A stretch of DNA of 64,000 nucleotides, from assembly GCF_013387465.1 (NCBI RefSeq), contig NZ_VYGV01000025.1, positions 62,001-126,000 on the forward strand. Direction: 5' to 3'. The first letter of the stretch is position 1. Each line of letters starts with the position of its first letter. The notes under the pieces were generated by a model. The model ran no database searches. It had not been told where the DNA came from and saw only the letters and a program-made list of their open reading frames with translations. The stretch comes from Hydrogenophaga aromaticivorans (lineage in GTDB: Bacteria > Pseudomonadota > Gammaproteobacteria > Burkholderiales > Burkholderiaceae_C). Below, piece after piece: positions 9,190-63,187 of the stretch. The position numbers were made by a program, and so were the translations under genes.

Positions 9190-9233
9190 GCCCGCGCCCA
9201 CCCTCAGGGGCGATGATGGCGTGGGGTGCCCTC

Positions 9234-10948
<1,715 letters not shown>

Positions 10949-10960
10949 CGGAACGCCCTC

Positions 10961-31500: not shown

Positions 31501-32454
31501 ATGCGCATTACGAACCGAAAAAGAGTGATGATCACTGGCGGCGCCGGGTTTCTGGGATCCCACCTCTGTGAACGGCTCCTCAACGAAGGCAACGACGTGC
31601 TCTGCGTTGACAACTTCTACAGCGGCACCAAGGACAATGTGGCTCACTTGGTGAACAACCCGCACTTTGAGCTGATGCGCCACGATGTGACTTTTCCGCT
31701 CTATGTGGAGGTCGACGAGATCTACAACCTGGCCTGCCCGGCGTCGCCCATCCACTACCAGCGCGACCCGGTCCAGACCACCAAGACCAGCGTGCACGGC
31801 GCGATCAACGTGTTGGGGCTGGCCAAGCGCACCGGCGCACGCATCTTCCAGGCATCGACCAGCGAGGTCTACGGCGACCCCGAAGTCCACCCCCAGGAAG
31901 AAAGCTATTGGGGCCGCGTCAACCCGATCGGCATCCGCTCTTGCTACGACGAAGGCAAACGCTGCGCCGAGACCCTGTTTTTTGACTACCACCGCCAGCA
32001 CCGGGTCAAGATCAAGGTGGCGCGCATTTTCAACACCTACGGCCCGCGCATGCACCCCAACGACGGTCGCGTGGTCAGCAACTTCATCGTCCAAGCCCTG
32101 CGCGGCGAGGACATCACGATTTATGGCGACGGGTCGCAAACGCGCAGCTTTTGCTACGCCGACGACCTGATCGAAGGTTTTGTGCGCCTGATGGCCAGCT
32201 CCGACAGCGTGACCGGTCCGATCAACCTCGGCAACCCGGTCGAGTTCACCATCAAGGAACTGGCCGAGGCAGTGCTGACCAAGGTTGGCGGCCGCTCGCG
32301 CCTGGTGTTCAAACCCCTCCCCCAGGACGACCCCAGGCAGCGCCGGCCCGACATCGCGCGCGCCCAGGCCGAGCTCGGCTGGGAGCCGCGCGTTCAGCTG
32401 GATGCGGGCCTGGAAAAAACCATCCACTACTTCAAACAATTCCTGCAGAGCTGA
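31501..32454 (+). CDS. UDP-glucuronate decarboxylase / UDP-xylose synthase (UXS-like SDR)
   Basis: A 317-residue extended SDR. The NAD-binding motif is [12 protein letters not shown] at about residue 12; the catalytic Tyr-Lys pair is in [22 protein letters not shown] and [20 protein letters not shown] are hallmarks of UXS enzymes, which decarboxylate UDP-GlcA to UDP-xylose. The UDP-glucose dehydrogenase gene at 34502 in the same run would supply UDP-GlcA. A relative producing a 4-keto-pentose is a less likely alternative. It opens the polysaccharide locus; 2 bp separate it from the next gene. Confidence 0.88.
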
Positions 32455-32456
32455 TC

Positions 32457-33416
32457 ATGGAGCAGCACGATCTGATAGTGGTCACACCGGTCTACGAAGA
32501 CGTGGAGGCCTGCAGCCGGCTGTTCAAGGAACTCGCCGACCAGTTCAATGACCGGCTGTTTGTGGTCGCCGTGGACGACGGATCCGTGCGCCAGCCCCTG
32601 GATGTAGGCTGCCTGGAAGCGGCAGGCGTCAAAGGCGTGGTGATCAAGCTCAAGCGCAACGTGGGTCACCAGAAGGCGATCGCCATCGGTCTGTCCTATG
32701 TGTCCGACAAAATCGGACCCGACCAGCGGGTAGTCGTCATGGACTCGGACGGCGAAGACATGCCCGCAACCATCCCCACGCTGCTCGAACAGCTCCAGCG
32801 CGACGACGTCGACGTGGCCGTAGCGCACCGCAAGAGCCGTGTCGAAACCTGGCGCTTCAAGCTGTTCTACGCCATCTACAAGCGCGTCTTCAAGGTCATG
32901 ACGGGCCGACCGATCAGCTTCGGCAATTTCATGGCGCTCAAGCGAGCGTCTGTCAAACGCCTGGTCGCGATGCAGGAGCTACCGATCCACGTCGCCGGTG
33001 CCGTGCTGGCGTCGAAGCTGCGCACCGGGGTCTGCCCGCTGGACCGGGGTCCGCGTTACGCCGGTCAGTCCAAGATGAACTTCGTCGGCCTGGTGCTGCA
33101 TGGCTTCAAGGGCCTGATGGTGTTCGCGGAAGACGTGCTGGTGCGCGTGGGCATCGCCTGTGGCCTGATCGCCGCCCTGTCGGTGGCCGGTGCCGGTACG
33201 GCGGTGGCCCTGAAGGTGATTGGCTATTCGTCACGCGGCTGGTTCTCGGTCGCCATCGGCATCCTGATCTTGATGTTCATGCAAACCGGCGCACTGGCCC
33301 TGATGACGCTGATGCTGACCGGCATCGTGCGCGGCGGAAGCACCACCATGAGCTCGGCCTACCAGGACCTGATCGACGAGGTGTTGCCGACCGCCTTGCC
33401 CCGCAGACTTCGATGA
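32457..33416 (+). CDS. GtrB/DPM-like GT2 glycosyltransferase with two C-terminal membrane helices
   Basis: A 319-residue protein. The GT2 domain (1-225) shows VVTPVYEDVEACSRLFKEL, VVAVDDGS, RNVGHQKAIAIGLSYV and the metal motif MDSDGEDMP. Two hydrophobic segments (about 233-258 and 268-295) anchor it. This is the GtrB/polyprenyl-phosphate glycosyltransferase architecture that loads a sugar on undecaprenyl phosphate at the cytoplasmic face. The next gene is GtrA-like and overlaps by 4 bp, supporting a lipid-linked sugar role. The sugar is likely xylose or another sugar made nearby, by inference. Confidence 0.87.
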   Translation: MEQHDLIVVTPVYEDVEACSRLFKELADQFNDRLFVVAVDDGSVRQPLDVGCLEAAGVKGVVIKLKRNVGHQKAIAIGLSYVSDKIGPDQRVVVMDSDGEDMPATIPTLLEQLQRDDVDVAVAHRKSRVETWRFKLFYAIYKRVFKVMTGRPISFGNFMALKRASVKRLVAMQELPIHVAGAVLASKLRTGVCPLDRGPRYAGQSKMNFVGLVLHGFKGLMVFAEDVLVRVGIACGLIAALSVAGAGTAVALKVIGYSSRGWFSVAIGILILMFMQTGALALMTLMLTGIVRGGSTTMSSAYQDLIDEVLPTALPRRLR

Positions 33417-33838
33417 AACGCCCTTCAGCACAATTTGTTCGTTTCCTGATCAATGGCGTGCTGGCCACGGCTGTGCACTACCTGGCGCTGCGCCTGGGCA
33501 TTGAGGTGCTGAAGCTGGGTTCGGCCGGCCTGGCCAACCTGCTCGCGGCGCCGCTGGGCATCGCCACCTCATTCCTGGGCAACCGGTATTTCGTTTTTCA
33601 GCGCCAGGGCGGTGACCTGCTGCAGCAGGCGCTGCGCTTCATCGGTCTCTACGCGGCCATCGCCTTGCTGCATGGCAGCCTGCTCTATGTCTGGAGTGAT
33701 CTGCTCAAGTTCAACTACCACATCGGATTCCTGATCGCCGTGGCCATGCAGGTGGTGCTGGGCTACCTCGCCGGCAAACACCTGGTGTTCAAGGCCGCAC
33801 CCGTTCACAGTCCGAGCCGAGACCTGCATGGTGTCTGA
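33413..33838 (+). CDS. GtrA-family membrane protein (putative polyprenyl-P-sugar flippase)
   Basis: A 141-residue protein with four hydrophobic segments and the GtrA pattern: FVRFLINGVLATAVHYLAL at the start, the central TSFLGNRYFVFQ and the closing GYLAGKHLVFK. GtrA proteins are thought to move undecaprenyl-phosphate-linked sugars across the inner membrane. The start codon overlaps the stop of the GtrB-like gene (ATGA), so the pair is made together. Confidence 0.9.
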   Translation: MKRPSAQFVRFLINGVLATAVHYLALRLGIEVLKLGSAGLANLLAAPLGIATSFLGNRYFVFQRQGGDLLQQALRFIGLYAAIALLHGSLLYVWSDLLKFNYHIGFLIAVAMQVVLGYLAGKHLVFKAAPVHSPSRDLHGV

Positions 33839-33886
33839 GTTCGGCTGCATTTCGAAAAAAGTGAGTGCCGGTGTAGGAGCCTGGGC

Positions 33887-34483
33887 ATGAAATTTCTCAA
33901 ACTGGTTTTCGCCACCGCCCTGTACCTAGCCCTGCTGTGCAGCGTGTGGCTGCTGGTCGTCAACTTCTTCAAGGTCAACGTGGTCTTTTATGCGGCCATC
34001 TGGACCGCGCTGATAGCGGTCGGTCTGCAGACCGCGCTGGTGTTGTTCACCCCGCTGCTGCGCGGCTTCAGTGGCCTGGAGAAGTTCCAGCAAGTGGCCA
34101 GTTGCGTGCTGATCGGCTACATCATGGCGATCAGCGTGCCGACCGTGATCGACCGTTCGCTCTCGTTCTACATCCTGGAAAAACTGCAGCAGCGGGGCGG
34201 AGGCATCCAGTTGTCCCGGTTCAACCAGGTCTTCACCACCGAGTACATGCGCGAGCACCGCCTGGTCGACATCCGGCTGACCGAACAAACCGAATCCGGC
34301 ACCATCGTGATCCAGGGCGACTGCGTGAAGCTGACCCCCAAGGGCGAGCGGATCGCATCCTTTGGCCGCTTCTTCCGCCAGAACCTGCTGCCCAAACAGC
34401 GCCTGCTGATGGGCGAATACACCGATCAATTGACCAACCCTTTCCGGCGCAGCGATCCGGCGCCTGATTACCTCTGTCGCTAA
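33887..34483 (+). CDS. Unknown membrane protein with soluble C-terminal domain
   Basis: A 198-residue protein I do not recognise. Three hydrophobic segments lie at about 6-27, 30-54 and 66-90. The remaining about 105 residues are soluble; the stretch FNQVFTTEYMREHRLVDIRLTEQ followed by DCVKLTPKGERIASFGRFFR resembles a winged-helix pattern, which would be unusual on a membrane anchor. It sits between the GtrA-like gene and UDP-glucose dehydrogenase and probably belongs to the lipid-linked sugar module. Confidence 0.7.
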   Translation: MKFLKLVFATALYLALLCSVWLLVVNFFKVNVVFYAAIWTALIAVGLQTALVLFTPLLRGFSGLEKFQQVASCVLIGYIMAISVPTVIDRSLSFYILEKLQQRGGGIQLSRFNQVFTTEYMREHRLVDIRLTEQTESGTIVIQGDCVKLTPKGERIASFGRFFRQNLLPKQRLLMGEYTDQLTNPFRRSDPAPDYLCR

Positions 34484-34501
34484 GACTTTAGAATTCGCAT
34501 C

Positions 34502-35668
34502 ATGAAAATAGCAATCGCAGGCACCGGCTACGTCGGTCTGTCCAATGCCGTCCTTCTGGCCCAGCACAACGAAGTGGTCGCCATCGACATCGTGGCCGAG
34601 AAGGTCGAGATGCTCAACCGCAAGCAGAGCCCCATCGTCGACGCCGAAATCGAGGACTACCTCAAGAACAAGGCGCTGAACCTGCGCGCCACGACCGACA
34701 AGCACGAAGCCTATGCGGGCGCGGACTACGTCATCATCGCCACGCCCACCGATTACGACCCCGAGACCAACTACTTCAACACCCGCTCGGTGGAGTCGGT
34801 GATCGCCGACGTGGTGGCCATCAACCCGAACGCGGTGATGGTGATCAAGTCCACCATTCCGGTGGGCTTCACCGTGAAGGCGCGTGAACAGTACAAGACC
34901 GCAAACCTGATCTTTTCGCCCGAGTTCCTGCGCGAAGGCCGCGCGCTCTACGACAACCTGCACCCCACGCGCATCGTGGTGGGCGAGCAGACCGAGCGCG
35001 CGCGGGTGTTCGCCGAGCTGCTCAAGCAAGGCGCGATCAAGAAGGACATGCCCATCCTCTACACCGACTCGACCGAGGCCGAGGCGATCAAGCTCTTCGC
35101 CAACACCTACCTGGCGATGCGCGTGTCCTACTTCAACGAACTCGACAGCTACGCCGCCACGCACGGTCTGGACAGCCGCCAGATCATCGAAGGTGTGTGT
35201 CTCGACTCGCGTATCGGCCAGCACTACAACAACCCCTCGTTTGGCTACGGTGGCTACTGCCTGCCCAAGGACACCAAGCAGCTGCTCGCCAATTACCGCG
35301 ACGTGCCGCAGAACCTGATCCAGGCCATCGTGGCGTCGAACAGCACGCGCAAGGATTTCATCGCCGACGAGATCATCCGGCGCAAGCCCAAGGTGGTTGG
35401 CATCTACCGCCTGATCATGAAGAGCGGTTCGGACAACTTCCGTGCCTCCAGCATCCAGGGCATCATGAAACGCATCAAGGCCAAGGGCATTGAGGTGGTG
35501 ATCTACGAACCCATGTTGCCCGAGGACACGTTCTTCAACACCCAGGTGATGCGCGACCTCGACGCCTTCAAAGCCAAGGCCGACGTGATCGTGGCGAACC
35601 GCCAATCCGAGTCTCTGGCCGACGTAGCAGACAAGGTCTACACACGCGATCTTTTTGGCAGCGACTGA
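34502..35668 (+). CDS. ugd: UDP-glucose 6-dehydrogenase
   Basis: A 388-residue enzyme oxidising UDP-glucose to UDP-glucuronate with two NAD. The Rossmann motif is [39 protein letters not shown] and the catalytic cysteine in [12 protein letters not shown] are all present. It is the short Ugd type common in polysaccharide loci of Gram-negative bacteria. Its product feeds the UXS-like enzyme at 31501 and possibly glucuronosyltransferases. Confidence 0.95.
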
Positions 35669-35683
35669 TTCCTGGCAAGCCCC

Positions 35684-36637
35684 TTGAAACTCATCATCCA
35701 GATCCCCTGTTACAACGAAGCCGAGACCCTGGGCATTGCCCTCTCGGCCCTGCCCCGCCAGGTGCCCGGCTTTGATTCAGTGGAATGGCTCATCATCGAT
35801 GACGGCAGCACCGACGCGACGGTGGAGGTGGCGCTCAGGCACGGGGTCGACCACGTCGTGCGCCACACACGCAACCAGGGCCTGGCGCGCGGTTTCATGA
35901 ACGGCATCCAGGCCTGCCTGGAAAAAGGCGCCGACGTCATCGTCAACACCGACGCCGACAACCAGTACAACGCCGACGACATCCCGCTGCTGACCCAGCC
36001 CATCGTTGATGGCAAAGCCGACTTCGTGATCGGTGCCCGCCCGATCGAGGCCATCGAACACTTCAGCCCGATCAAGAAGCTGCTGCAAAAACTCGGCAGC
36101 TGGGTGGTGCGGGTGGCGAGCAAGACCAACATCCCCGACGCACCCAGCGGTTTTCGCGCCATCAGCCGCACCGCCGCCCGCCATCTGGTGGTGTTCAGCG
36201 ACTACACCTACACGCTGGAAACCATCATCCAGGCTGGCCAGAAGAACATGGCCATCACCTCGGTGCCGATCCGCGTCAACGGCGACCTGCGCCCCTCGCG
36301 CCTGGTCAAGAGCATCTCGTCGTATATCCAGCGCAGCATCGTCACCATCATCCGGGTCTTCATCATCTACCGGCCGTTCCGCTTCTTTGGCGCAATCGGT
36401 GGGGTGCTGTTCACCGCCGGTTTTGCGATCGGCCTGCGCTTTCTCTACAAATACGTCAACAGCGACGGCGGCTACGAAGGCCATGTCCAGTCGCTGATCC
36501 TGGCCAGTTCGCTGCTGGTGATGGGTTTTCACACCCTGCTGATCGCCTTTGTGGCCGATCTGCTCTCGGCCAACCGCAAGCTGATGGAGGAGATCCGCGC
36601 CATCACGCTGGAGAACCGGGACGGCGGCAAGCACTGA
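35684..36637 (+). CDS. GT2 glycosyltransferase, DPM1-like, with C-terminal membrane segments
   Basis: A 317-residue protein starting at TTG (35684), since the conserved first strand LIIQIPCYNEAETLG begins right at this codon. GT2 marks are IIDDGSTDAT, NQGLARGFMNGIQA, the DxD-like NTDADNQYN and PSGFRAISR. Two hydrophobic segments follow (about 238-260 and 270-300). Polyprenyl-phosphate sugar synthase or inverting transferase on the inner leaflet is likely; it is the second such enzyme in the module. Confidence 0.85.
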   Translation: MKLIIQIPCYNEAETLGIALSALPRQVPGFDSVEWLIIDDGSTDATVEVALRHGVDHVVRHTRNQGLARGFMNGIQACLEKGADVIVNTDADNQYNADDIPLLTQPIVDGKADFVIGARPIEAIEHFSPIKKLLQKLGSWVVRVASKTNIPDAPSGFRAISRTAARHLVVFSDYTYTLETIIQAGQKNMAITSVPIRVNGDLRPSRLVKSISSYIQRSIVTIIRVFIIYRPFRFFGAIGGVLFTAGFAIGLRFLYKYVNSDGGYEGHVQSLILASSLLVMGFHTLLIAFVADLLSANRKLMEEIRAITLENRDGGKH

Positions 36638-36807
36638 GCCCAAGGCCTGGATCTCCCGCCCGACCTCGCCCGGATCTGCGAGCGGGAATGCTTGAAACGC
36701 CAACCATCGGGATTTGACGGTCTGACCGTGCGCAAGGTGCCGTACGGGAACAGTGTTTCGCACTAAGCACTTTTTAAGTCTTGCCCGGGTACAGTTTGCC
36801 GCCCGAC

Positions 36808-38334
36808 ATGACTGAAAAAAACATTGCATCCTTGAAGCCAGCCGTCAGTGGCAGATGGTGGCTGTTTGTGATCCTGTGGTGCTTGGCCCTGTGCGTTCTT
36901 TCTGCGCAAAAGATCGATGGCAGCAGCATCAAGGGCGACGCGACTCAGAACCTGATCCTTGCCAAAGGCATTTACGAGCATGGCGAGTTTTCGCTCGGTG
37001 GCGGCCTCACCAGCTTTCGCGAACCGGTCCCTCCGCTGCTGGTGGCGACCTATCTGCAGTTGTTTGCCGATCGGCACAGTCCGATGGACCTCGAGTCCAT
37101 GCACTACGGTGCGCACACCCGCTTTGTCAAACTGAGCAACCTGTTCTGGGTCTTCTGGGGCCTGTTGGGCAGCTGGCTGCTGTTTTTTGAAGTGTCGCAG
37201 CGGCGCTGGCTCAGTCTGGCAGCGCCGCTGCTGAGTGCACCGTTCTTCTTCACCAACCCCCTGATCGTCAATTCGCTCTACACCGAATTGCAGGCCGGAA
37301 CCCTGATGATCTGGTGCTCGTACCTGCTGGTCCGCGCAGCACAACAACCCAGCGCCTGGCGTCTGCTGCTGACCGGGGTCTTCCTCGGTCTGCTCTGCCT
37401 GACCAAGGCATTGTTTTTGCCGGTGTCCTTTGTGGTCATTGCAGCGATGATGATCAAGCAATGGCCCGAACGGCCCGGCAGCGACTGGCGCGCCTGGAAA
37501 CCCATGAGCCGTGTCGGTCTGTACATCGGCCTGGGCCTGGCCGTGACGGTGCTGCCCTGGATCGGGCGCAACCACGCGCAAATGCAGTCGACCGAGATCT
37601 CGGCCGGCCGCAGCGGCTACATCCTGCTCAAGCGCGCCATGATCGACCAGATCACGGACGACGAGTTCAAGGCCGGCTTTTACCTGTTTGGTCCTCAGCC
37701 TTACAAGCAGCTGGTGGCCGGCACCGGGCTCGACGTCAAAGCCGACGAAGCGGTGAAACGCGAAGGCCGTCTGGCGCGATTGAACGGTGCGCGATCGGAT
37801 TACATTGTCGACGACACACGCGCCCTCTACGCCGGTCACCCCGAGCAGGTGATCAGCTTCTACCGCAAGGCCGCTGCGGTGCACGTGCAGCTGACCCGGT
37901 TGTTCGAGCAGGCACACGATGCGCATCCCACCCTGGCAGCCGACAAGGTGATGCAGAAAGTGGCCTTGCAGCAGTTCGCCGACCATCCCTGGCGCCATTT
38001 GAAGGTCTCGCTGCTGATGTTCTGGCGTGGCTTCTGGTGTCTTTCACCCGGTACCCCCCTGCCTCTTGTCTCGGAAGCCCATCTCCGCACCACGCTCATC
38101 GTGGGCCTGAATGCCGCCGCCGGACTGGCACTGCTGTTCGTCTTCTTCAAGGCGCTGCTGCAGCGCCAGACCCCGCTGCTCTTCATGACCGCCTTGCCGG
38201 TTCTGATGATGCTGGTCTACACATTGGTGTCCCAAAACCTGCCACGCTTTTTTGCGCCGGCCGTGCCATTCATGTTGCTGAGCCTGTTCTGGTTACTGGC
38301 TCCGTCGTTGTGCCAGCGAGCGTCGCGGCGTTGA
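36808..38334 (+). CDS. GT-C-like polytopic membrane protein, paralog 1
   Basis: A 508-residue protein with about nine hydrophobic segments. The first periplasmic loop, with KGDATQNLILAKGIYEHGEF and SFREPVPPLL, contains an acidic residue in the position used by GT-C enzymes such as ArnT/PMT. A large loop (about residues 265-390) includes AGRSGYILLKRAM and YRKAAAVHVQLTR. It probably transfers a lipid-linked sugar to a glycan or protein on the periplasmic side. A tandem paralog follows 11 bp later. The ATG at 36808 is preferred over an upstream TTG. Confidence 0.7.
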   Translation: MTEKNIASLKPAVSGRWWLFVILWCLALCVLSAQKIDGSSIKGDATQNLILAKGIYEHGEFSLGGGLTSFREPVPPLLVATYLQLFADRHSPMDLESMHYGAHTRFVKLSNLFWVFWGLLGSWLLFFEVSQRRWLSLAAPLLSAPFFFTNPLIVNSLYTELQAGTLMIWCSYLLVRAAQQPSAWRLLLTGVFLGLLCLTKALFLPVSFVVIAAMMIKQWPERPGSDWRAWKPMSRVGLYIGLGLAVTVLPWIGRNHAQMQSTEISAGRSGYILLKRAMIDQITDDEFKAGFYLFGPQPYKQLVAGTGLDVKADEAVKREGRLARLNGARSDYIVDDTRALYAGHPEQVISFYRKAAAVHVQLTRLFEQAHDAHPTLAADKVMQKVALQQFADHPWRHLKVSLLMFWRGFWCLSPGTPLPLVSEAHLRTTLIVGLNAAAGLALLFVFFKALLQRQTPLLFMTALPVLMMLVYTLVSQNLPRFFAPAVPFMLLSLFWLLAPSLCQRASRR

Positions 38335-38345
38335 GACCGCGGAAC

Positions 38346-39929
38346 ATGCACGATACTTCTGCACCCCTGATGACCACCGACACAACGATGAACGCCTTGC
38401 ACCCCGCGCCGCCCAAAATGCCGCTCCTGGGGTGGTTGCTCACCTTTGTCCTCTGTGCCGTTCTGAGTTTTTTTGCCGCCGACCACATCAAGGGCGACAG
38501 CATCAAGGGTGATGCGACGCAAAACCTGGTGATCAGCTACAACCTCTACCACCACGGCGATTTTTCACGCGGCGGCCAGCACACACACCATGTGCCGACC
38601 AGCTTCCGGGAACCCCTGCCGCCGTTTGTCACCGCCGCCTACCTGAAGCTGTTTTTCCACCCCGACCAGCCATACGACTTCGAGTCCTGGCACAACGGTG
38701 CCCACACCCGTCTCATCAAACTGGGCAATCTGTTCTGGGTCTTTGGCGGACTGCTCGCCACCGCCTTGATCGTTTTCAGCCTCACGGCCAGCCCGGTCGC
38801 TGTGCTGCTGGGCCTGGGTCTGAACTTCACCTGGTTTTTTGGCAGCCCTTTCGTCATCAATTCGCTCTACACCGAGCTGCCCGCAGCCACGCTGATGCTC
38901 TGGGCGTCCTTCTTTCTGCTGCGATCCCGGCACAGCAATACCCGGTGGTCGTTGACCCTGGCCGGGGTGTTCCTCGGTCTGTTGTGCCTGACCAAGGCCG
39001 TCTTCATTTATGTGGCGCCCGTGGCGGCCGTGTTGTTCGCCCTGATGCTGGCACGGGAACAGCACCCCGGCGGCTGGCTGCGCGCCTGGGGGCGTTCGTC
39101 TGCGTGGCTGATGCTGTGCGCCGCCCTCGTGGTTGCGCCCTGGATACTGCGCAACCAGTTGCGCCTGGGGACCGCCGAGGTGTCCTCGGGACGCTCCGGC
39201 TATGTGAGCTTCAAGCGCGCGATGATGAACCAGATGAGCGCTGAAGAGCTGCGCTACGCCTATTTCAATTTTGGTCCGCCGCTCTACAAGAGCTTGGTCA
39301 GCGAAACGGATTGGGGTCGTTTTCGGCCTGAAGACCTGCAGCGCGGCGGCGCGCTGAACCGGCTGAACTATTTCGACCCGGCCTACATCCGCGAGGAAAA
39401 GACCGCTGTGGCCCTGGGGCAGCCGGAACGGGCCACCACCTTCTATTACAAACCGGCGGCGATCTACCGCCAGCTGGTGAATATGCTGGTTGCAGGCGGA
39501 CACCCCAAGCCACATGAGACCGCCGACCGCATCATGCAGCGCGAGGCCTTGAAACAGTTCGCAAGCCACCCGCTGCAACACCTCAGGATGACGCTGCTGG
39601 TGTTCTGGCGCGGCTTCTGGGCCCTGATGGCCAACACACCGCTGCCCTTTTCCCAGGACCAGGTCATAGGCCCTCTGGCCACCACGCTGAGCAACCTCGC
39701 CGCCGGCGCCGCCCTGTTCGGCGTTTTCCTCTCGGCCTTGCTGCGACGCCGGACCGCCTCTCTGGCCATCAGTGTCTTGCCGGTCTGCATGATGGGCTTG
39801 TACGCCTTGCTGTCGCACAACCTGCCCCGTTTCACCGAACCCGCGGTCCCCCTGATGTTCATCAGTGTGCTCTGGGTGACCCAGCACGCCTTGGCAGGCA
39901 AACGCCGCGCCACACTGCCTGCGCCTTGA
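38346..39929 (+). CDS. GT-C-like polytopic membrane protein, paralog 2
   Basis: A 527-residue protein closely related to its upstream neighbour. Shared blocks are KGDATQNL, SFREPLPP, NGAHTRLIKLGNLFWVF, INSLYTELPAATLMLW, GVFLGLLCLTKAVF, SSGRSGYVSFKRAM and LLVFWRGFWAL. The reading frame is open far upstream through paralog 1, but the family homology starts only at about residue 27 here, so the start lies at 38346 or at the ATGs at 38370 or 38388. As with paralog 1, a role as periplasmic lipid-linked-sugar glycosyltransferase is inferred from topology and context. Confidence 0.7.
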   Translation: MHDTSAPLMTTDTTMNALHPAPPKMPLLGWLLTFVLCAVLSFFAADHIKGDSIKGDATQNLVISYNLYHHGDFSRGGQHTHHVPTSFREPLPPFVTAAYLKLFFHPDQPYDFESWHNGAHTRLIKLGNLFWVFGGLLATALIVFSLTASPVAVLLGLGLNFTWFFGSPFVINSLYTELPAATLMLWASFFLLRSRHSNTRWSLTLAGVFLGLLCLTKAVFIYVAPVAAVLFALMLAREQHPGGWLRAWGRSSAWLMLCAALVVAPWILRNQLRLGTAEVSSGRSGYVSFKRAMMNQMSAEELRYAYFNFGPPLYKSLVSETDWGRFRPEDLQRGGALNRLNYFDPAYIREEKTAVALGQPERATTFYYKPAAIYRQLVNMLVAGGHPKPHETADRIMQREALKQFASHPLQHLRMTLLVFWRGFWALMANTPLPFSQDQVIGPLATTLSNLAAGAALFGVFLSALLRRRTASLAISVLPVCMMGLYALLSHNLPRFTEPAVPLMFISVLWVTQHALAGKRRATLPAP

Positions 39930-40195
39930 GCACGGGTACCGCAAGGACCGGGTGGGCTGGGGGCGACAAGGTATCATCGGGGGTGCGAATTTGACCGGTC
40001 CTGGGCACGCCCCGCCCGGCTGATCAGGCCCCACAGACCCGGCATCCATGGCCCTGCGCGCCGACCGGCGGGCCCGCGTCAGCGCCGCACAACCGCTCTC
40101 CATTTCGCATTGAACGACCCTGCTCCCCGGCCCTTCCAAAATACACCTGAGCATCCGCACGCACCGAAACCTGGCCATCGCCCTGGCCTGACAAC

Positions 40196-41257
40196 ATGAA
40201 AATTCTCTATGTGGCCGGCAGGGAACTGGCGTATTCGCGCACCCGCATCATCATCAAAGCCTTGACCGAACGAGGGCACGAAGTCACGACCTGCCTTCCT
40301 CCCGACAAGTCGTTCAAGCACTACCCAGGCCTGTTGCTGAAAACCCTGCTGCAAGCGCCTCGGCACGACGTCGTCTTGACCGGCTTCTACGGCCAGCTGC
40401 TCACCCCCCTGGTGCGCCTGCTGACCTGGAAGCCGATCGTGTTCGACATGTACATCACGACCTACGACACCATGGTGTTTGACCGGGAAAAGGCCAGACC
40501 CGGTTCGCTGAAAGCCAAGCTCTACGCCCTGTCCGACTGGTTGTCGTACAAAGCCGCCAACGTGTCCATCCTGGACAGCAACCACGTGATCGCCCACTTC
40601 GGCGAATACGCCCGCTCCAGCACGAGCAAGCTGCGCCGCCTGTTCCTGGCCGTCGACAACACCGTCATCTACCCCCGGGAACGCCAGCAGAAGCACGAAG
40701 CTTTCCTGGTGCATTTCCACGGTGAGTACATCCCGTTCCATGGCGTCAAACACATCTTCCAGGCCGCCAAACTGCTGGAAAACGAGAATGTCGCGTTCCA
40801 GATCATTGGTCGTGGCCTGACCTTTGAGCAAGACATGGCCCTGCTCAAGGAACTGAACGTCCAGAACGTGAAGATCCTGGACCCGGTTCCCTACGCCGGA
40901 CTGGCGACCCACATGGCGGAGGCCGATGTGTGTCTGGGCATCTTTGGCGACAACATGCGGGCCGAGCTGGTGCTGACCAACAAGGTCAACGAAGCGATCG
41001 GCATGGCCAAACCGCTGATCACACGCCGCAACGCACCGGTTCAGGAGCTGCTGCAGCACAAGGAGAGCGTGTACCTGGTGGACGCCGCCAGCCCCCGTGC
41101 GATCGCCGATGCCATCCTCGAGCTCCAGCGCGATGAAGGCCTGCGCCAAAAGATCGCCGAAAACGGTCATCGGCGCTTTCTCGAACACGGCACCATTCAG
41201 AAGCTTGGTGAAGGACTGGAAGCCATCCTGAATGAAGTCGTGAGCAAAAAGGCCTGA
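40196..41257 (+). CDS. GT4-like glycosyltransferase
   Basis: A 353-residue GT-B fold protein. The N-terminal domain begins ILYVAGRELAYSRTRIIIKALTE, and the C-terminal domain carries FHGEYIPFHGVKHIFQAA, VAFQIIGRG, the donor-site region MAEADVCLGIFGDN and VNEAIGMAKPLITR. Acceptor and donor sugars cannot be read from the sequence. The 266-bp gap in front of it (39930-40195) has GC-rich sequence with no recognisable gene, and may hold an internal promoter. Confidence 0.82.
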   Translation: MKILYVAGRELAYSRTRIIIKALTERGHEVTTCLPPDKSFKHYPGLLLKTLLQAPRHDVVLTGFYGQLLTPLVRLLTWKPIVFDMYITTYDTMVFDREKARPGSLKAKLYALSDWLSYKAANVSILDSNHVIAHFGEYARSSTSKLRRLFLAVDNTVIYPRERQQKHEAFLVHFHGEYIPFHGVKHIFQAAKLLENENVAFQIIGRGLTFEQDMALLKELNVQNVKILDPVPYAGLATHMAEADVCLGIFGDNMRAELVLTNKVNEAIGMAKPLITRRNAPVQELLQHKESVYLVDAASPRAIADAILELQRDEGLRQKIAENGHRRFLEHGTIQKLGEGLEAILNEVVSKKA

Positions 41258-41299
41258 GCCCACACACCAGAGAAGTCGCTGGGTCGGCCTGGCTACCGC

Positions 41300-42259
41300 A
41301 TGAACCTCAAAAAAGTCCTCTTCAAGATCGTCTCGTATGGGCTGGTGTCCGTTGCGGTGGTCTATTTCGGCCTGCAACTCAACCGGCATCTGGCCGACAT
41401 TCCGCCGATAGACTGGTCCTTCGCGATCATCCTGACGCTGGTGCTGTCGATCCTGGTCACAGCGTTGAACACCCTCACCATCGCCCTCAACTGGCGCCTG
41501 TTGCTCAGGGATCAGGATGTGCATGTCTCGCTGCTGCACGTCTGGCAGATGGTGGCGGTTTCGCAGATCGGCAAATACCTGCCGGGCAATGTGGGCCATT
41601 TCGCCGGCCGGGCGGTGCTGGGCAAGGAACAGGGCATTCCAATGGGCGTGACGGTGGCCACCACCTCGATCGAGACCATCTGGAACATCATCGTGGGTGC
41701 GGCGCTGACGCTGCTGGCACTAGCGCTGGGCATCGGCGGGTTCGAGTCGGTTCTGGAAGACAGCTTCGCGACGACCGAAATGCTGGTCGCACTGCTGCTG
41801 GTGTCGGTGGCCGCGCCCACGGTGGGCATCATGGTGATGAACCGGGTGTTTCCCCGGCTGAGCCTGAAGCTCGGTGGCGGATCCCTGGTCAAGCCCCCCC
41901 GGGTCGTGACCAGCCTGGTGGTGGGCGGGATCATCCTGTTCAACCTGTTCGTACTGGGCGCCGTGCTCAAACTGCAGGCCACGTCGGTCTTTCAGGCCCA
42001 CGGGGGCAACTTCTTCCTGTTTGCCCTGCTGTTCAGCGTGGCCTGGATCATCGGCTACGTGGTGCCCGGATCGCCGGGTGGCATGGGCGTGCGCGAGGCC
42101 ATGATGCTGCTGCTGTTCACCCCGGTCATTGGCGCCGGCGCGACCCTGGGCATTTCCGTCACAATGCGCGTCACCTCCATCCTGGGTGACGGGCTGGCCT
42201 TCCTGCTGGGCATGGTGAGCCTGAAAATGTCGCCGCCGCCCGTACAGAACCACCGCTGA
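41300..42259 (+). CDS. UPF0104/LPG synthase-like flippase domain membrane protein
   Basis: A 319-residue protein with about eight hydrophobic segments of the lysylphosphatidylglycerol synthase TM (UPF0104) superfamily. Family marks are WQMVAVSQIGKYLPGNVGHFAGRAVLGKEQ, the TSIETIWNIIVGA helix and VPGSPGGMGVREAMMLLL. No aminoacyl-transfer domain is attached. Such stand-alone domains occur in polysaccharide loci and are suspected lipid or lipid-linked-sugar translocators. Confidence 0.85.
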   Translation: MNLKKVLFKIVSYGLVSVAVVYFGLQLNRHLADIPPIDWSFAIILTLVLSILVTALNTLTIALNWRLLLRDQDVHVSLLHVWQMVAVSQIGKYLPGNVGHFAGRAVLGKEQGIPMGVTVATTSIETIWNIIVGAALTLLALALGIGGFESVLEDSFATTEMLVALLLVSVAAPTVGIMVMNRVFPRLSLKLGGGSLVKPPRVVTSLVVGGIILFNLFVLGAVLKLQATSVFQAHGGNFFLFALLFSVAWIIGYVVPGSPGGMGVREAMMLLLFTPVIGAGATLGISVTMRVTSILGDGLAFLLGMVSLKMSPPPVQNHR

Positions 42260-42290
42260 AACCGACCCTTTGTCGTCCACAAGTCCCACC

Positions 42291-43883
42291 ATGAACAACA
42301 GACCCTGGCCTGCGTACCTGGTGGCAACCCTGTTTGCGTGTCTGGCCGTGTTCCTGGCCATTTTTGTCACGCCGCCTGGTGATCTGCCAGACGAAACCGG
42401 GCACTACGCCTATGTGGTGGACATGACCAAGGGGCGGCCATTCCCCCTGCTGGGCAAGGCGGAGATACCGCCCACCATCTGGCGCGACATCGAAGGCGTG
42501 GTCGATCACCACCGGAAAAACTACATCGTCCAGCACCCCCCGCTGTACTACGGCATCGCCGCCATTCCCTACGCGATCGCTCACCAATTCACCGAAGACA
42601 AACAGATCCTCTCGCGTGCAGCGCGGCTGGTGTCGGCCTTGTCGCTCGGCTTGCTGGTGCTCGTCCTGTTCAGGATGCTGACGTTTCTGGGCATCGCCGA
42701 AGGGACGGCCCTGGCCGGTGCCTCACTGATCGGATTCATTCCGATGGTGACCCACCTCGCCTCGGGCATTTCCAACGATCTGTTTCTGACCTTGATGAGC
42801 GCCCTGGCGACGCTCTACCTGGTGAAATATGTGGTGGATGGTCACATCCGGCACGCCTACGCGTGTGCGTTCTGGCTGGCCTGCGCCGGGGCAACCAAGA
42901 TGACGGCGTGGATTCTGATCGCAGCCTACGTGGGCATTCTGTTGTTTGAGATGCGCAAACGGGGCCTGTTGTGGATCGGGCATGCGCTCGCTGTGTCGCT
43001 GCTGTCGGTCAGCACCGCGCTGTGGTGGATGCGGCGGAACATTTACCACTTTGGCGATCCCTTTTTCATCCATGGGTCGCACCTGAAGCAGAAGGTTTTT
43101 GACTACACCCTCCTGGACTTCTTCCGCCAGCAGCCGTTTTTCGAATGGCTGCTGTACCACTTCTACGCCTTGATCGGGTTTTCGGGCTATTGCCAGACAC
43201 CTCAGACCGCAGAACAGGTTCAACGCCTGTGCCACGGCGTCAAGCTGTTCCGGGTGGAAGGCCCGTCCTACTGGGTGTTCACCGCACTGGCGCTGGTCTG
43301 CGTGCTGGCGCTGCTGGCGGCCATCGCGCGAAACGCCTGGCGCGCGACGGCCGTTCGTCCAGAGCCGAAAGGCTGGATCAGCTTCCAGGCATGGGCGTCT
43401 TCCCTGTTGGGCAACGGGTCGGTTCGCAAGCTGCTCTTTGTCTTGCTGTTCACGCTGGGCACAGCTGGCGTGGCCTTTGCGCTGATGAACAGCCACAACT
43501 CCGCATGGAGGGTGACCGCACTGCCTTTTGGCGCCAGCTTTCTGCTGGCGTTTGCCGGCTTTCTGGGGCTCGCCAGCGTGTTCACGAGCGACCAGCCTCA
43601 ACACCGGCTGACCGCCTATGGCCCCCTGCTGCTGACGCTGTTCGTGGCACTGCTGTTTTACCAGGGCTACAAGGCCATCCTGTTGACGGGATCACCCCAC
43701 GGCATTCAGGGGCGCTACCTGCTGCCCTTTGTCCCCCTGTTGCTGGCTTCGTTCATGCTCGCCACCAAGACCTTCCGGTACCAGGCGCAACTGCTGTTCG
43801 TGATCTGCCTGGGCATGGGCTGGGCCTATGTCAACGCCTATGCCACCTATGTGATCCCATTCTTCCAATTCGTGCGGATATGA
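42291..43883 (+). CDS. DUF2142 family membrane protein
   Basis: A 530-residue protein with around eleven hydrophobic segments. The first extracytoplasmic loop has TPPGDLPDETGHYAYV (the P-DE-H pattern of DUF2142/GT-C-like proteins) and QHPPLYYG. The C-terminal part shows GIQGRYLLPFVPLLLASF. DUF2142 proteins are often encoded in cell-surface glycan loci and are suspected GT-C transferases. The ATG at 42291 is preferred to an upstream TTG. The next gene starts within its stop codon. Confidence 0.82.
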   Translation: MNNRPWPAYLVATLFACLAVFLAIFVTPPGDLPDETGHYAYVVDMTKGRPFPLLGKAEIPPTIWRDIEGVVDHHRKNYIVQHPPLYYGIAAIPYAIAHQFTEDKQILSRAARLVSALSLGLLVLVLFRMLTFLGIAEGTALAGASLIGFIPMVTHLASGISNDLFLTLMSALATLYLVKYVVDGHIRHAYACAFWLACAGATKMTAWILIAAYVGILLFEMRKRGLLWIGHALAVSLLSVSTALWWMRRNIYHFGDPFFIHGSHLKQKVFDYTLLDFFRQQPFFEWLLYHFYALIGFSGYCQTPQTAEQVQRLCHGVKLFRVEGPSYWVFTALALVCVLALLAAIARNAWRATAVRPEPKGWISFQAWASSLLGNGSVRKLLFVLLFTLGTAGVAFALMNSHNSAWRVTALPFGASFLLAFAGFLGLASVFTSDQPQHRLTAYGPLLLTLFVALLFYQGYKAILLTGSPHGIQGRYLLPFVPLLLASFMLATKTFRYQAQLLFVICLGMGWAYVNAYATYVIPFFQFVRI

Positions 43884-44542
43884 GCAAACTCATCAAGACC
43901 TTGCTGCTCACTGCGGCGCTGTTCGCCGGGTTTGCCGCGTTGACCTGGTCGCTCAGCAAAGACAAGGTGCCGTACTTCGGCAACACGATGGTGCTGGACC
44001 AGAAGGAAATCACCGCCATCTCACCTGTGGGGCCGTTCGGCGGGTCATTTCTGCTGAGCCAGAAAATGGACATGGGTCACATCAATTTCCGTGACGAATT
44101 CCTGGATCGGCCCATCTGCCTGTCGCTGTTCCTGGACAAGAACTTCCCCCACTTCAAGCACGTGCCCTTCAAACTGGCCCTGGTTGGCGACAACCTGAAT
44201 GTGGTCAAGGTACTCAGCACGGCCGTGATCAAGGACGACTTTGGTCGCATCTGCTTCGACGACACCACGCTGGGCCAGCTGAAGGACCAGCAGGTTTCCA
44301 TCCAGATTTCAGCCGAATCGCCCTCCCAGACCAACATCGCCCGGGTGATCATGACGCCCCACAAGAAGGGGGCCCCCGCCGAGATCGACGGCGTCGCATC
44401 CAATCTGTCCCTCCCCTTTACGCTCGAAGTCCGGCAACCCATTTCCAGGCACCAGTGGATGTCCTTCGTGGTCATCAACCTGATCGTCAGCCTGGTGCTT
44501 GCGATCGTGTTCGTGCAATCTTTCTCAAGAACCCGTTCCTGA
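43880..44542 (+). CDS. Unknown periplasmic-facing protein bracketed by two membrane segments
   Basis: A 220-residue protein I do not recognise. One hydrophobic segment lies near each end (about 6-23 and 195-214), and the intervening about 165 residues are hydrophilic and beta-rich, so the middle domain is predicted to face the periplasm. It starts inside the stop of the DUF2142 gene (ATGA), implying the two proteins act together, perhaps as a transferase and its accessory subunit. Confidence 0.7.
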
Positions 44543-44598: not shown

Positions 44599-45663
44599 AT
44601 GATTTTGGTAACAGGGGCCGCTGGCTTCATCGGATCGAACTTTGTGATTGACTGGCTGGCCCAGAGCGGCGAGGCCGTGGTCAATCTGGACAAGCTGACC
44701 TACGCCGGCAACCCCGAAAATCTCAAGAACCTGCAAGGCGACGCACGGCATGTGTTCGTGCAGGGCGATATCGGCGACCGGGCACTGGTTGACCAGCTGC
44801 TGAAAGACCATGCCCCCCGCGCCGTGGTGAACTTTGCAGCCGAGAGCCACGTGGACCGGTCGATTCATGGCCCCGGCGAGTTCATCCAGACCAACGTGGT
44901 CGGGACCTTCAACCTGCTGGAGTCGGTGCGTGCCCACTGGACAGCGCTGGGCGACGCCGACAAGGCCGCCTTCCGTTTCCTGCACGTGTCCACCGATGAG
45001 GTCTATGGCACCCTGGGCCCCGACGATGCGCCGTTCACCGAGACCACCCCCTTCGCGCCGAACAGCCCGTATTCGGCATCCAAGGCATCGTCTGACCACC
45101 TGGTGCGCGCCTACCACCACACCTACGGCATCCCGGTCCTGACCACCAACTGCTCCAACAACTACGGCCCGTACCACTTCCCCGAAAAGCTCATCCCGCT
45201 GGTGATCGTCAATGCCCTGCAGGGCAAGCCCCTGCCGATCTATGGCGATGGACAGCAGGTGCGCGACTGGCTGTTCGTGAAGGACCATTGCAGCGCCATC
45301 CGCCGCGTGCTGGAAGCGGGCCAGCCCGGCGAAACCTACAACGTGGGTGGCTGGAACGAGATGGCCAACATCGAGATCGTGCAAAAGGTCTGCGCCCTGC
45401 TCGACGAATTCCGCCCGCGGGCCGATGGCAAGCCCTACAACGAACAGATCACCTACGTGAAAGACCGCCCGGGTCACGATCGCCGTTACGCCATCGACGC
45501 CCGGAAGATCCACACGGAACTGGGCTGGAAGCCGGTCGAGACCTTTGAAAGCGGCATCCGCAAGACGGTGCAGTGGTACCTCGACAACCCCGAGTGGGTG
45601 GCCCATGTGCAAAGTGGTGCCTACCGCAACTGGATCGGCACGCAATACGGTGCCGCTGCATGA
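44599..45663 (+). CDS. rfbB: dTDP-glucose 4,6-dehydratase
   Basis: A 354-residue SDR enzyme, second step in dTDP-L-rhamnose synthesis. Landmarks are [24 protein letters not shown], the catalytic STDEVYG and [10 protein letters not shown] (Tyr-x-x-x-Lys), and [12 protein letters not shown]. It opens the rmlBDAC block; its stop overlaps the rfbD start (ATGA). The start at 44599 follows the preceding stop by 56 bp. Also called rmlB. Confidence 0.97.
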
Positions 45664-46547
45664 ACATTCTCCTGACCGGCAAGAATGGTCAGCTGGGCTT
45701 TGAACTGCAGCGGTCGCTGGCGCCGCTGGGTCGGGTGTTTGCGGTCGACTCCAGCGACTGCGACCTCGAAGACAGCGAAGCCGTGCGCGAGCTGGTGCGC
45801 CGGGTCCGACCGCAGGTGGTGGTGAACCCTGCGGCGTTCACGGCGGTGGATCTGGCCGAGTCCCATGCGGACAAAGCCATGGCCGTGAATGCCGTGGCGC
45901 CCGGCGTGCTCGGCGAAGAAGCGCATCGGCTGGGCGCACCGGTGATCCACTTCTCGACCGACTACGTGTTCGACGGTGAGAAAGGGGCGCCTTATGTCGA
46001 GGACGATGCCCCCCAGCCGCAGTCGGTTTATGGTCGCAGCAAGCTCCTGGGAGAAATCGCGCTAAGGCAGGCCTGTCCCAAGCACCTCATCCTGCGCACC
46101 AGCTGGGTGTTCGGGGCGCATGGACAGAACTTCGCCAAGACCATGTTGCGGCTCGCCCAAGAGCGCAGCGAGCTGCGCGTGGTGTCCGACCAGATCGGCG
46201 CCCCCACGTCGGCTGCGCTGCTGGCCGATCTCACGGCCCATCTGGTGCGCCAGCTCCAGCAGTCCGACCACGCCTCTTTTCCTTTCGGGCTCTACCACGT
46301 GACGGCCTCTGGCGAGACCTCCTGGCACGCGTACGCCCGGTACGTTCTGGAACAGGCGACAATCAAGGGTTACGAACTGCGGACGAGCCCGGACCGGGTG
46401 ATGCCCATCACCACCGACGCCTACCCCACACTGGCCAAACGTCCACGGGACTCCCGGCTGGATTCGTCCAGGTTCAAACGCAGCTTCGCCCTGGAATTAC
46501 CCCACTGGGAGCAAGGCTTGAACCACATACTGCAACAGATCTTATGA
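45660..46547 (+). CDS. rfbD: dTDP-4-dehydrorhamnose reductase
   Basis: A 295-residue SDR completing dTDP-L-rhamnose. Landmarks are [38 protein letters not shown] and YGRSKLLGE with the catalytic Tyr and Lys. ATGA overlaps join it to rfbB upstream and rfbA downstream. Also called rmlD. Confidence 0.96.
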
Positions 46548-47434
46548 GCACCTCTCAACGCAAAGGCATCATCCTGGCTGGCGGGTCCGGCACACGCCTC
46601 TACCCGGTCACACAGGCGGTGAGCAAGCAACTCATGCCCGTGTATGACAAGCCGATGGTCTACTACCCCTTGAGCACCCTGATGCTGGCGGGTATCCGTG
46701 ACATCCTGGTGATTTCGACACCGCACGACACGCCCCGCTTCCAGGAGCTGCTGGGCGACGGCAGCCAGTGGGGCCTGAACCTGGAATATGCGGTCCAGCC
46801 CAGCCCGGACGGCCTCGCCCAGGCCTTCGTGATTGGTGAAAAATTCATAGGTGACAGCCCCTCTTCCCTGGTGCTCGGCGACAACATCTTCTACGGCCAC
46901 GATTTCGCCGCCTTGCTTCACAACGCCGGTCAGCGCACCGAAGGCGCCACGGTGTTCGCCTACCACGTGACCGACCCGGAGCGCTATGGCGTGGCCGAAT
47001 TTGACCCGTCGGGCAAGGTGCTGAGCCTGGAAGAAAAGCCGAAGCACCCCAAAAGCAACTACGCGGTCACGGGCCTGTATTTCTACGACAACGATGTGGC
47101 CCGCCTGGCCAAGGACCTTAAACCGTCCCCCCGCGGCGAGCTGGAGATCACCGATCTCAACCGCCTGTACCTGGAAGCCAACAAGCTGCAGGTGGAGGTG
47201 ATGGGCCGGGGCTACGCCTGGCTGGACACCGGCACCCACGACAGCCTGCTCGAAGCGGGCCAGTTCATCGCCACGCTGGAAAAGCGCCAGGGCCTCAAGG
47301 TCGCCTGCCCCGAAGAAATCGCCTACCGGCACCGCTGGATCGATGCCGGGCAGATGGAAGCCCTGATCAAGCCCCTGTCAAAGAACGGCTACGGTCAGTA
47401 CCTGCAACAGATCCTGCGGGAAGACGTGCGATAA
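46544..47434 (+). CDS. rfbA: Glucose-1-phosphate thymidylyltransferase
   Basis: A 296-residue nucleotidyltransferase making dTDP-glucose, the first committed step to dTDP-rhamnose. The signature [45 protein letters not shown] and [20 protein letters not shown] are all present. Start overlaps the rfbD stop by 4 bp; 3 bp separate it from rfbC. Also called rmlA. Confidence 0.97.
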
Positions 47435-47437
47435 GCC

Positions 47438-47983
47438 ATGAAAGCCACACCGCTCGCCATTCCGGACGTCATTCTGTTTGAGCCCAAGGTCTTCGGAGAC
47501 GATCGTGGGTTCTTCTTCGAGAGCTTCAACCAGCTGCGCTTTGAAGAAGCCGTCGGCCGCAAGGTCGATTTCGTGCAGGACAACCACTCCAAGTCCGCGC
47601 GCCACGTGCTGCGCGGTCTGCACTACCAGATCCAGCAGGCCCAGGGCAAGCTGGTGCGCGTTGTTCAAGGCGAGGTCTTTGACGTGGCGGTGGACATCCG
47701 CCGCTCCTCACCGACCTGCGGTCAATGGGTGGGTGCCCATCTCAGCGGCGAAAACAAACACCAGCTCTGGATACCGGAAGGTTTTGCCCACGGTTTTCTG
47801 GTGCTGAGCGAGTCCGCAGAATTTCTGTACAAGACCACCAACTACTACGCGCCCGCCCACGAGCGCAGCATCGTCTGGAACGATCCGGACATCGGCATCC
47901 AGTGGCCGACCGATGCCGCGCCCTTGCTGTCCGGCAAGGACCAGGCCGGTGCCCTGCTGAAAAACGCCGACCTGTTCGACTGA
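47438..47983 (+). CDS. rfbC: dTDP-4-dehydrorhamnose 3,5-epimerase
   Basis: A 181-residue cupin epimerase. Landmarks are FFFESFNQLRFEEA, the catalytic histidine in HVLRGLHYQ, GEVFDVAVDIR, IPEGFAHGFLVLS and the tyrosine region YKTTNYYAP. It finishes the rmlBDAC set, so the cell has a full local supply of dTDP-L-rhamnose. Also called rmlC. Confidence 0.97.
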   Translation: MKATPLAIPDVILFEPKVFGDDRGFFFESFNQLRFEEAVGRKVDFVQDNHSKSARHVLRGLHYQIQQAQGKLVRVVQGEVFDVAVDIRRSSPTCGQWVGAHLSGENKHQLWIPEGFAHGFLVLSESAEFLYKTTNYYAPAHERSIVWNDPDIGIQWPTDAAPLLSGKDQAGALLKNADLFD

Positions 47984-51470: not shown

Positions 51471-51474
51471 CCCC

Positions 51475-53644: not shown

Positions 53645-53651
53645 TTGCCCC

Positions 53652-59605: not shown

Positions 59606-59628
59606 ATCACCACAGGGAGGACTCCAGA

Positions 59629-60441: not shown

Positions 60442-60459
60442 ATCTGGCGGAGTCAAAAG

Positions 60460-61519: not shown

Positions 61520-61560
61520 GGCTTGAATCCACCCTTCACGAAAAAACTCAATTAAATGCA

Positions 61561-62877: not shown

Positions 62878-62878
62878 T

Positions 62879-63187
62879 CATATTGACGTCATCAGCGCAA
62901 TCGACGACAATATATTCGCTGAGGGTTGGTGCTTGATCCTGGGCGTTCATGCCATCGAAAATTTGATCGCAAAAATTGACAATAAAAGCGCGCACGAGAT
63001 TAGTTTCGATACCAGACCCCGTCCCGATTTCAACCATCACTATCCGGAGGGGTCACTATTCTCAGGATTTCGAGTTTTAATTTATCACACAGACATTCAA
63101 AACATCAAAATCATTGAGCTATTCGGAAGGATTAAAGATGGTCAACTATCTCAACCCATAGAAATTGATATCTCCAAATTAGAATAA
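62879..63187 (+). pseudogene. Detached 3' portion of the sulfotransferase-like gene (second C-terminal repeat)
   Basis: This frame is open through the upstream stop and encodes VISAIDDNIFAEGWCLILG, FDTRPRPDFNHH, GFRVLIYH and NIKIIELFG, which parallels the domain at residues about 325-425 of the preceding product. It has no ATG or GTG start; the only candidate, a TTG at 62933, lies inside the domain. The likely break is the A/T homopolymer stretch at 62844-62863. Sequencing error or programmed slippage would give one longer protein. Confidence 0.7.

Follow-up and report, generated by a model that had tools for sequence, protein, structure and literature searches.

A UXS-GtrB-GtrA cassette with a conserved small membrane protein in Hydrogenophaga aromaticivorans: a proposed UDP-xylose-fed route to a lipid-linked pentose

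The DNA considered here, called the window, is a stretch of 64,000 nucleotides from the 5.63 Mb genome of Hydrogenophaga aromaticivorans (contig NZ_VYGV01000025.1, positions 62,001 to 126,000 of the forward strand; G000:C27:62001-126000 in our numbering). It contains a run of 12 open reading frames (ORFs), all on the + strand at 31501-44542, which a first-pass annotation had read as a single 13-kb module for the transfer of a lipid-linked pentose. The 12 genes and their order are as it described. The part of the run that recurs elsewhere, however, is a cassette of four genes at 31501-34483, encoding a UDP-xylose synthase (UXS), GtrB, GtrA, and a 198-residue membrane protein, here called unk198. 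Comparative genomics supports the putative pentose core well, and unk198 joins it as a new conserved partner. We consider it fairly probable that the cassette is a UDP-xylose-fed variant of the GtrABC systems, in which UXS and UDP-glucose 6-dehydrogenase (Ugd) would supply the donor, GtrB would load the sugar onto its lipid, GtrA would flip it, a GT-C glycosyltransferase would transfer it to a surface glycan, and unk198 would act as a partner. The cassette genes and ugd, with predicted transmembrane (TM) helices and undecaprenyl phosphate (Und-P) abbreviated, are:

31501-32454, + strand: UXS, UDP-glucuronate decarboxylase (UDP-xylose synthase); match to human UXS1, E 1.3e-126
32457-33416, + strand: GtrB-type polyprenyl-phosphate glycosyltransferase, proposed Und-P-xylose synthase; PF00535, 53.1 bits
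33413-33838, + strand: GtrA-type small membrane protein, proposed flippase; PF04138, 62.8 bits (cut-off 26.1)
33887-34483, + strand: unk198, 198 residues, three predicted TM helices and a C-terminal domain of ~110 residues; conserved cassette partner of no known family
34502-35668, + strand: Ugd, UDP-glucose 6-dehydrogenase; PRK15057, 703.8 bits, and three Pfam domains over their cut-offs

The identities given earlier to UXS and Ugd are borne out by the UXS1 and PRK15057 matches and by the Pfam domains. UXS aligns with human UXS1 over residues 5-315 and shares with it the TSEVYGDP and YDEGK stretches, which we take to hold the active-site residues in their usual roles; the next group of PDB matches reaches only E 1.6e-40, and the score against the NCBIfam ArnA model (106.4 of 777 bits) is far below cut-off. 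The 703.8 bits of Ugd fall below the PRK15057 cut-off of 757. The host genome has a single close UXS, the one in the cluster (two other matches are 28% identical), and Ugd is its sole over-cut-off match to PF03721 (two others lie below cut-off). Together, with Ugd providing UDP-glucuronic acid, the two enzymes would make UDP-xylose in the cytoplasm.

The best PDB relative of GtrB is Synechocystis GtrB, sll0501 (E 9e-16, residues 5-281); the match to ArnC gives E 4.6e-10, and the score against the NCBIfam ArnC model, 46.1 of 529 bits, is far below cut-off. The gtrA gene overlaps gtrB by 4 bases, and its product is the only over-cut-off GtrA-family match in the host genome. In family and position, the locus therefore resembles a GtrABC-type system: a GtrB-type GT2 is present and adjoins a GtrA-family protein. 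GtrB would load the pentose onto its lipid, presumably Und-P, and GtrA would flip the lipid-linked pentose outward. Because this GtrB keeps a strict neighbourhood with UXS, its sugar is presumed to be xylose.

This neighbourhood was followed through 299 Comamonadaceae genomes (the family sample) and 398 genomes of the phylum (the phylum sample). In the family sample UXS (E <= 1e-90) occupies 71 places in 66 genomes, and GtrB (E <= 1e-60) is present in five genomes: that of the window, G208, G280, G044, and G018. In all five GtrB lies directly behind UXS, the aligned stretches being 5 to 82 bases apart; since three of the five belong to one genus, these cases are not independent. When 30 of the 71 UXS places were checked within ~1.5 kb, GtrB was found beside three (window, G208, G280); the 30 checked did not include the UXS-GtrB places of G044 and G018. 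At the four loci besides the window unk198 is always present, directly behind GtrB in G018, and GtrA is present in three. In the phylum sample GtrB (E <= 1e-40) occurs in six genomes, the window's included. In one of these, G372, UXS, GtrB, and GtrA are consecutive, and unk198 comes next on the opposite strand. GtrB also matches 90 plasmid records. Among the 25 of these listed, two fall below E 1e-30, and both have UXS beside GtrB: Hirschia baltica pHbal01, with the order unk198-GtrB-GtrA-UXS, and a plasmid of Azospirillum lipoferum, with the order dehydrogenase-UXS-611-residue TM protein-GtrB, GtrA behind these on the opposite strand, and rfbD/rfbA nearby.

UXS and GtrB are thus together in eight loci (window, G208, G280, G044, G018, G372, Hirschia, and Azospirillum), of which seven have unk198 (not Azospirillum) and seven have GtrA (not G018). 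Three of the eight lie outside the family sample, two of them on alphaproteobacterial plasmids. Around the cassette a dehydrogenase recurs in G044 and Azospirillum, and rml genes are near in both. Of the gene order that the first-pass annotation had proposed to look for across the Comamonadaceae, the UXS-GtrB core recurs (5 of 299 genomes) and also holds in G372, Hirschia, and Azospirillum; the 13-kb order does not recur at the loci compared. For none of four weaker plasmid relatives of GtrB (H12, H16, H20, H21) does the 4-kb flank on each side hold a UXS at E <= 1e-3. Likewise, three weaker genome relatives (G358, G461, and G445, with GtrB 32-36% identical) have neither UXS at E <= 1e-3 nor an unk198 match in the examined stretch; the G461 contig with GtrB spans only 7465 bases. 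In a tree of GtrB, four plasmid controls stand apart on a long branch (support 1.000). As a clean xylose clade the tree failed: G358, G461, and G445, which have no nearby UXS, fall among the UXS-linked members.

The remaining cassette protein, unk198, has no Pfam family at cut-off (window protein and other members scanned), no credible NCBIfam match (best E 0.0039, in one member), and no PDB match better than E 2.2. It has eight close homologs, the window copy included, and seven of the eight are beside UXS. It occurs (E <= 1e-6) in 5 of the 398 phylum genomes, the window's included, and in 1 of 72,556 plasmid records (Hirschia baltica pHbal01); there are no matches in 50,697 phage records, and none was confirmed in IMG/VR viral contigs. 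All eight close homologs have in common the stretches PTVIDRS and TEQ..SGT; their C-terminal domains also have two cysteines in common, and these cysteines are missing from the two distant relatives. The close homologs carry 0-3 lysines plus arginines before TM1, 0-1 in loop 1, and 2-3 in loop 2; on a topology drawn from simple hydropathy, these counts weakly suggest that the N-terminus is inside and the C-terminal domain outside, where the two cysteines may form a periplasmic disulfide. A single-sequence model gave a pLDDT (predicted local distance difference test) of 50.0 and a pTM (predicted TM-score) of 0.28, and it is unusable for the C-terminal domain because residues 82-198 lie below 50.

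Given its association with the cassette, unk198 would be a partner in loading, flipping, or transfer. Since G360 encodes GtrB and unk198 while nothing in its genome matches GtrA, unk198 may take over the work of GtrA there, or another protein may do so. In the phylum genomes G423 and G487 the only relatives of unk198 are distant (E ~1e-10), with a multi-TM protein adjoining and no UXS at 1e-50. Such distant unk198-like proteins, at L095:9006-9641 and L094 ~9315-9900 beside multi-TM proteins, suggest that the family of three TM helices plus domain may be broader than the xylose cassette. A wider proposal is possible, though we hold it only tentatively: a UDP-pentopyranose-fed Gtr branch across the Alpha- and Betaproteobacteria, in which unk198, whose three TM helices are joined to a domain predicted to face outward and to bear a disulfide, would be a new subunit that couples the synthesis or flipping of Und-P-xylose to the GT-C and can stand in for GtrA.

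In the last step a GT-C would place the pentose on a glycan of the cell surface, for which the O-polysaccharide of this cluster is the likeliest choice. Candidates in the window are:

36781-38334, + strand: GT-C paralog 1, with a GT-C-like predicted fold
38370-39929, + strand: GT-C paralog 2, a candidate by homology to paralog 1
42291-43883, + strand: DUF2142/PMT_2 protein, GT-C candidate; PF09913, 40.6 bits, and PF13231 (PMT_2), 37.4 bits, both over cut-off

Simple hydropathy predicts 11 TM helices in the DUF2142 protein and 5 and 6 in the paralogs, which are 44-45% identical to each other and have no Pfam or NCBIfam match. A model of paralog 1 built from 11 sequences reached a pLDDT of 83.8 and a pTM of 0.86. 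Foldseek returned 318 matches with E <= 10, of which 8 have E <= 0.001 and 50 were listed. The best is ArnT (5f15; E 2.0e-5, TM-scores 0.35 and 0.34, root mean square deviation 19.1), and the best matches, ArnT, AglB, OST, and Emb, have a probability of 1.00. The listed matches are, as we take them, nearly all GT-C proteins or GT-C complexes (ArnT at ranks 1 and 3, AglB, OST, Emb, Aft, PMT, ALG); the last one listed is a receptor with a probability of 0.14. Since all TM-scores are below 0.5, paralog 1 is placed at the superfamily level only; membership in the GT-C superfamily, in no specific family, is supported by the model. The comparison with ArnT and PMT that the first-pass annotation had suggested, run on paralog 1, thus predicts a GT-C-like fold.

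Each of the other seven UXS-GtrB loci also contains, or has close by, a large protein with at least 6 predicted TM helices (571 residues in G208, 550 in G280, 696 in G044, 510 in G018, 611 in Azospirillum, 800 in G372 at ~6 kb from the cassette, and 699 in Hirschia at ~1.4 kb). Among the proteins of G280, G044, G018, and G372 that were scanned, PMT_2 is over cut-off only for that of G280, so the GT-C label of these large proteins is in part presumptive. The candidate GT-C changes between loci while UXS and GtrB stay, which points to a logic like that of Gtr(type). The UXS-GtrB pairing, the large multi-TM protein at each locus, and the fold of paralog 1 make periplasmic pentose transfer plausible. 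To this extent the earlier idea of periplasmic transfer stands, along with the identities of UXS and Ugd on which it was built; comparison does not support its framing as a single 13-kb module, and lipid A or protein as the acceptor receives no specific support from this analysis. The Hirschia protein (L088:16404-18503) is annotated as a phosphoribulokinase, yet its 699-residue translation has 8 predicted TM helices; it is perhaps a misnamed GT-C candidate.

The rest of the run consists of:

35684-36637, + strand: DPM1-like GT2; PDB dolichol-phosphate-mannose synthase 5mlz, E 7.5e-13
40196-41257, + strand: GT4 glycosyltransferase; Glyco_trans_1_4, 46.9 bits
41300-42259, + strand: UPF0104/LPG_synthase_TM flippase-like protein; PF03706, 55.1 bits (cut-off 33.4)
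43880-44542, + strand: 220-residue protein with 2 TM helices predicted by hydropathy; no Pfam or NCBIfam match

With these genes in view, the loci can also be read in other ways. UDP-xylose might go to a conventional xylosyltransferase, such as the GT4 protein, that builds the O-antigen backbone in the cytoplasm, while GtrB and GtrA handle a hexose and the genes are only loosely clustered. UXS is indeed common without this GtrB, which stands behind only 5 of the 71 UXS places, and the Synechocystis enzyme that is the best PDB relative of GtrB uses UDP-glucose as its donor. We nevertheless judge this unlikely: GtrB orthologs adjoin UXS in five of five family genomes, the cassette recurs on two alphaproteobacterial plasmids, and the ~40 kb examined around each of the G208 and G280 cassettes hold no match to the window's rml, GT4, or exporter membrane genes, only weak ATPase matches. 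It seems more doubtful still that the lipid-linked pentose is not D-xylose, either because an epimerase first gives UDP-L-arabinose or because UXS releases a 4-keto pentose. A GalE-like ORF (so named by reading; RmlB match) does lie near the G372 cassette, galE is annotated in Azospirillum, and EvdS6 is reportedly titled a bifunctional decarboxylase; however, none of the window cassette's ORFs looks like a 4-epimerase (no search aimed at one elsewhere in the genome was made), and UXS matches UXS1 much more strongly than it matches the PDB group that follows.

That all of the 13 kb forms one module, with both GT-C paralogs, the DPM1-like GT2, the UPF0104 protein, and the DUF2142 protein serving pentose transfer, is improbable, and on the whole comparison with other genomes does not support it. 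In its favour, all the genes lie on one strand, and the search of four genus members found GtrB, the paralog kin, and the DPM1-like GT2 together in the window's genome, G208, and G280, while G114 is without all three at the thresholds used. Yet the cassettes of G208, G280, G044, and G018 have none of these further genes close by; G044 and G018 carry the cassette without paralog kin or DPM1-like GT2, and in G208 and G280 the DPM1-like orthologs are on contigs other than that of the cassette. One module is unlikely because only UXS, GtrB, GtrA, unk198, and the dehydrogenase (in G044 and Azospirillum) recur near the cassette. Of the 299 family genomes, 3 have kin of the paralogs; one of them is the window's, and all belong to a single genus. 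Kin also occur in nine named loci (eight Hydrogenophaga and one Thioalkalivibrio metagenome-assembled genome); UXS, GtrB, GtrA, and unk198 are absent from the examined flank of all nine. A functional tie between paralogs and cassette within the genus is conceivable, since G208 and G280 do have the cassette at another place in their genomes and G114 has neither.

Several observations weigh against the UDP-xylose-fed GtrABC reading itself. G018 has no linked GtrA (its only GtrA match is ~3 Mb off), and unk198 is missing from the Azospirillum stretch examined, also when the HMMER filters were switched off. In G360 GtrB and unk198 are together, UXS is on another contig, and the genome has no GtrA match; in G445 a dehydrogenase-like match lies ~7 kb from GtrB with no UXS. 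The GtrBs of G358, G461, and G445 group in the tree with those of the UXS-linked G372 and Hirschia. The cassettes of G372 and Azospirillum are not single operons, since unk198 in the one and GtrA in the other are on the opposite strand. Finally, no GT-C adjoins the window cassette, from which the candidates are separated by the genes for Ugd and the DPM1-like GT2, and the large TM proteins of G044, G018, and G372 have no Pfam match.

The UDP-xylose-fed cassette can be set beside several known systems. Like the GtrA/GtrB/Gtr(type) systems for O-antigen glucosylation in Shigella and Salmonella, it has a GtrB-type GT2, a GtrA-type protein, and a locus-variable GT-C candidate; unlike them, it adjoins UXS rather than drawing on UDP-glucose, has an extra conserved 198-residue membrane protein, and in G018 and G360 is without GtrA beside GtrB. 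The Arn pathway (ArnC, ArnT) is another route to a lipid-linked pentose, in which a pentose derived from UDP-glucuronic acid is carried on Und-P. An ArnT-like GT-C fold is predicted for paralog 1; however, UXS and GtrB, far below the NCBIfam cut-offs, are not equivalogs of ArnA and ArnC.

One report traces the lipid-linked pentoses of bacterial side-chain glycosylation to phosphoribosyl pyrophosphate (PRPP) and furanose sugars, and describes three-component pentofuranose systems (GT136) that start from PRPP, with a PPPRS that has no similarity to GtrB-type enzymes and a MATE-family flippase (PMC11127046). As described there, these systems share with the one proposed here a lipid-linked pentose, a flippase, a GT-C, and a side chain added after polymerisation (PMC11127046). 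They differ in that UXS, GtrB, and GtrA stand here in place of PPPRS and the MATE flippase, so a pyranose donor would be expected instead of the PRPP route. No PPPRS or MATE-type Pfam match was recognised among the 12 genes, of which the paralogs, unk198, and the 220-residue protein have no Pfam match at all. For unk198 the GacI/GacJ pair of Streptococcus pyogenes shows that a lipid-sugar synthase may have a small partner: a three-TM-helix protein is thought to aid the glycosyltransferase that makes a C55-P-sugar (PMC8035078). The likeness is one of description, and unk198 differs in its further conserved domain of ~110 residues. Only loosely related is the ugd mutant of Cytophaga hutchinsonii, which had less xylose in glycoproteins, with mannose, glucose, and galactose also reduced (PMC11858162). 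Among the literature matches listed (titles and abstract starts, with subscription journals mostly outside), no description of Und-P-xylose made from UDP-xylose, or of a Hydrogenophaga O-antigen structure, was recognised. If the proposal is true, a Gtr cassette fed by UDP-xylose would add one more route to lipid-linked pentose, UXS beside GtrB and unk198 would be a genome marker for xylosylated surface glycans, and a conserved membrane protein that belongs to no named family would gain a defined pathway.

The DPM1-like GT2 probably belongs to another donor system, separate from the pentose cassette, since its orthologs are in a separate locus on off-cassette contigs and the host genome has a second copy. 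The orthologs in G208 and G280 are 85-87% identical; none was found at 1e-50 in G114, G044, or G018. In G208 the gene comes after one for a DUF2142 protein (PF09913, 49.7 bits), and in G280 a 612-residue protein with a similar start, but no Pfam match, is at the DPM1-like locus. The second host copy (L021:10411-11361; G000:C27:136411-137361), 86% identical, lies at the far end of the same cluster and is followed, as at the G208 locus, by an acyltransferase-like ORF. A second lipid-sugar system in the cluster probably consists of the DPM1-like GT2, perhaps together with the DUF2142 protein; mannose, from the nearby manC-like gene, would be a guess for its sugar.

The GT4 protein probably acts in backbone synthesis; at the Thioalkalivibrio locus of the paralog kin (L028) its homolog is 66% identical. 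The UPF0104-like protein scores 31.3 bits against TIGR00374, below the cut-off of 43.2. By reading, the Hydrogenophaga paralog kin (L024, L026, L030, L031, ~9200-11530) are long genes that stand alone and whose products carry an additional TM-bracketed part at the N-terminus; several are near glycine-cleavage-like genes. The 220-residue protein was considered as a split-off of that N-terminal part and rejected (BLASTP against L024, best E 12).

Past 44542 the gene run continues on the + strand with rml-like genes, a GT4, a manC-like gene, an ABC-2 exporter, and more glycosyltransferases; the edge at 44542 is therefore arbitrary. Features named in this part are:

44599-45663, 45660-46547, 46544-47434, and 47438-47983, + strand: rmlBDAC-like dTDP-L-rhamnose genes, named by sequence reading
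50586-52224, + strand: Wzm/Wzt-like ABC exporter; ABC2_membrane, 69.8 bits, and ABC_tran, 71 bits

The second and third rml-like ORFs align to the Azospirillum genes annotated rfbD and rfbA. Beyond the window an initiating-transferase domain (PF02397) is over cut-off at C27:139415, and a WbpM-like ORF is recognised by reading. The whole run is probably an O-antigen cluster that opens with the 12 genes. Behind the exporter, ORFs at 52259-53644 and 53511-55241 have sub-cut-off matches to AMP-binding and polysaccharide deacetylase families. Near the end of the window an ORF at 60496-61272 reads like an IS30-type transposase, and the G+C content drops from ~0.60 to 0.47 at 58000-64000, which suggests an insertion or foreign DNA.

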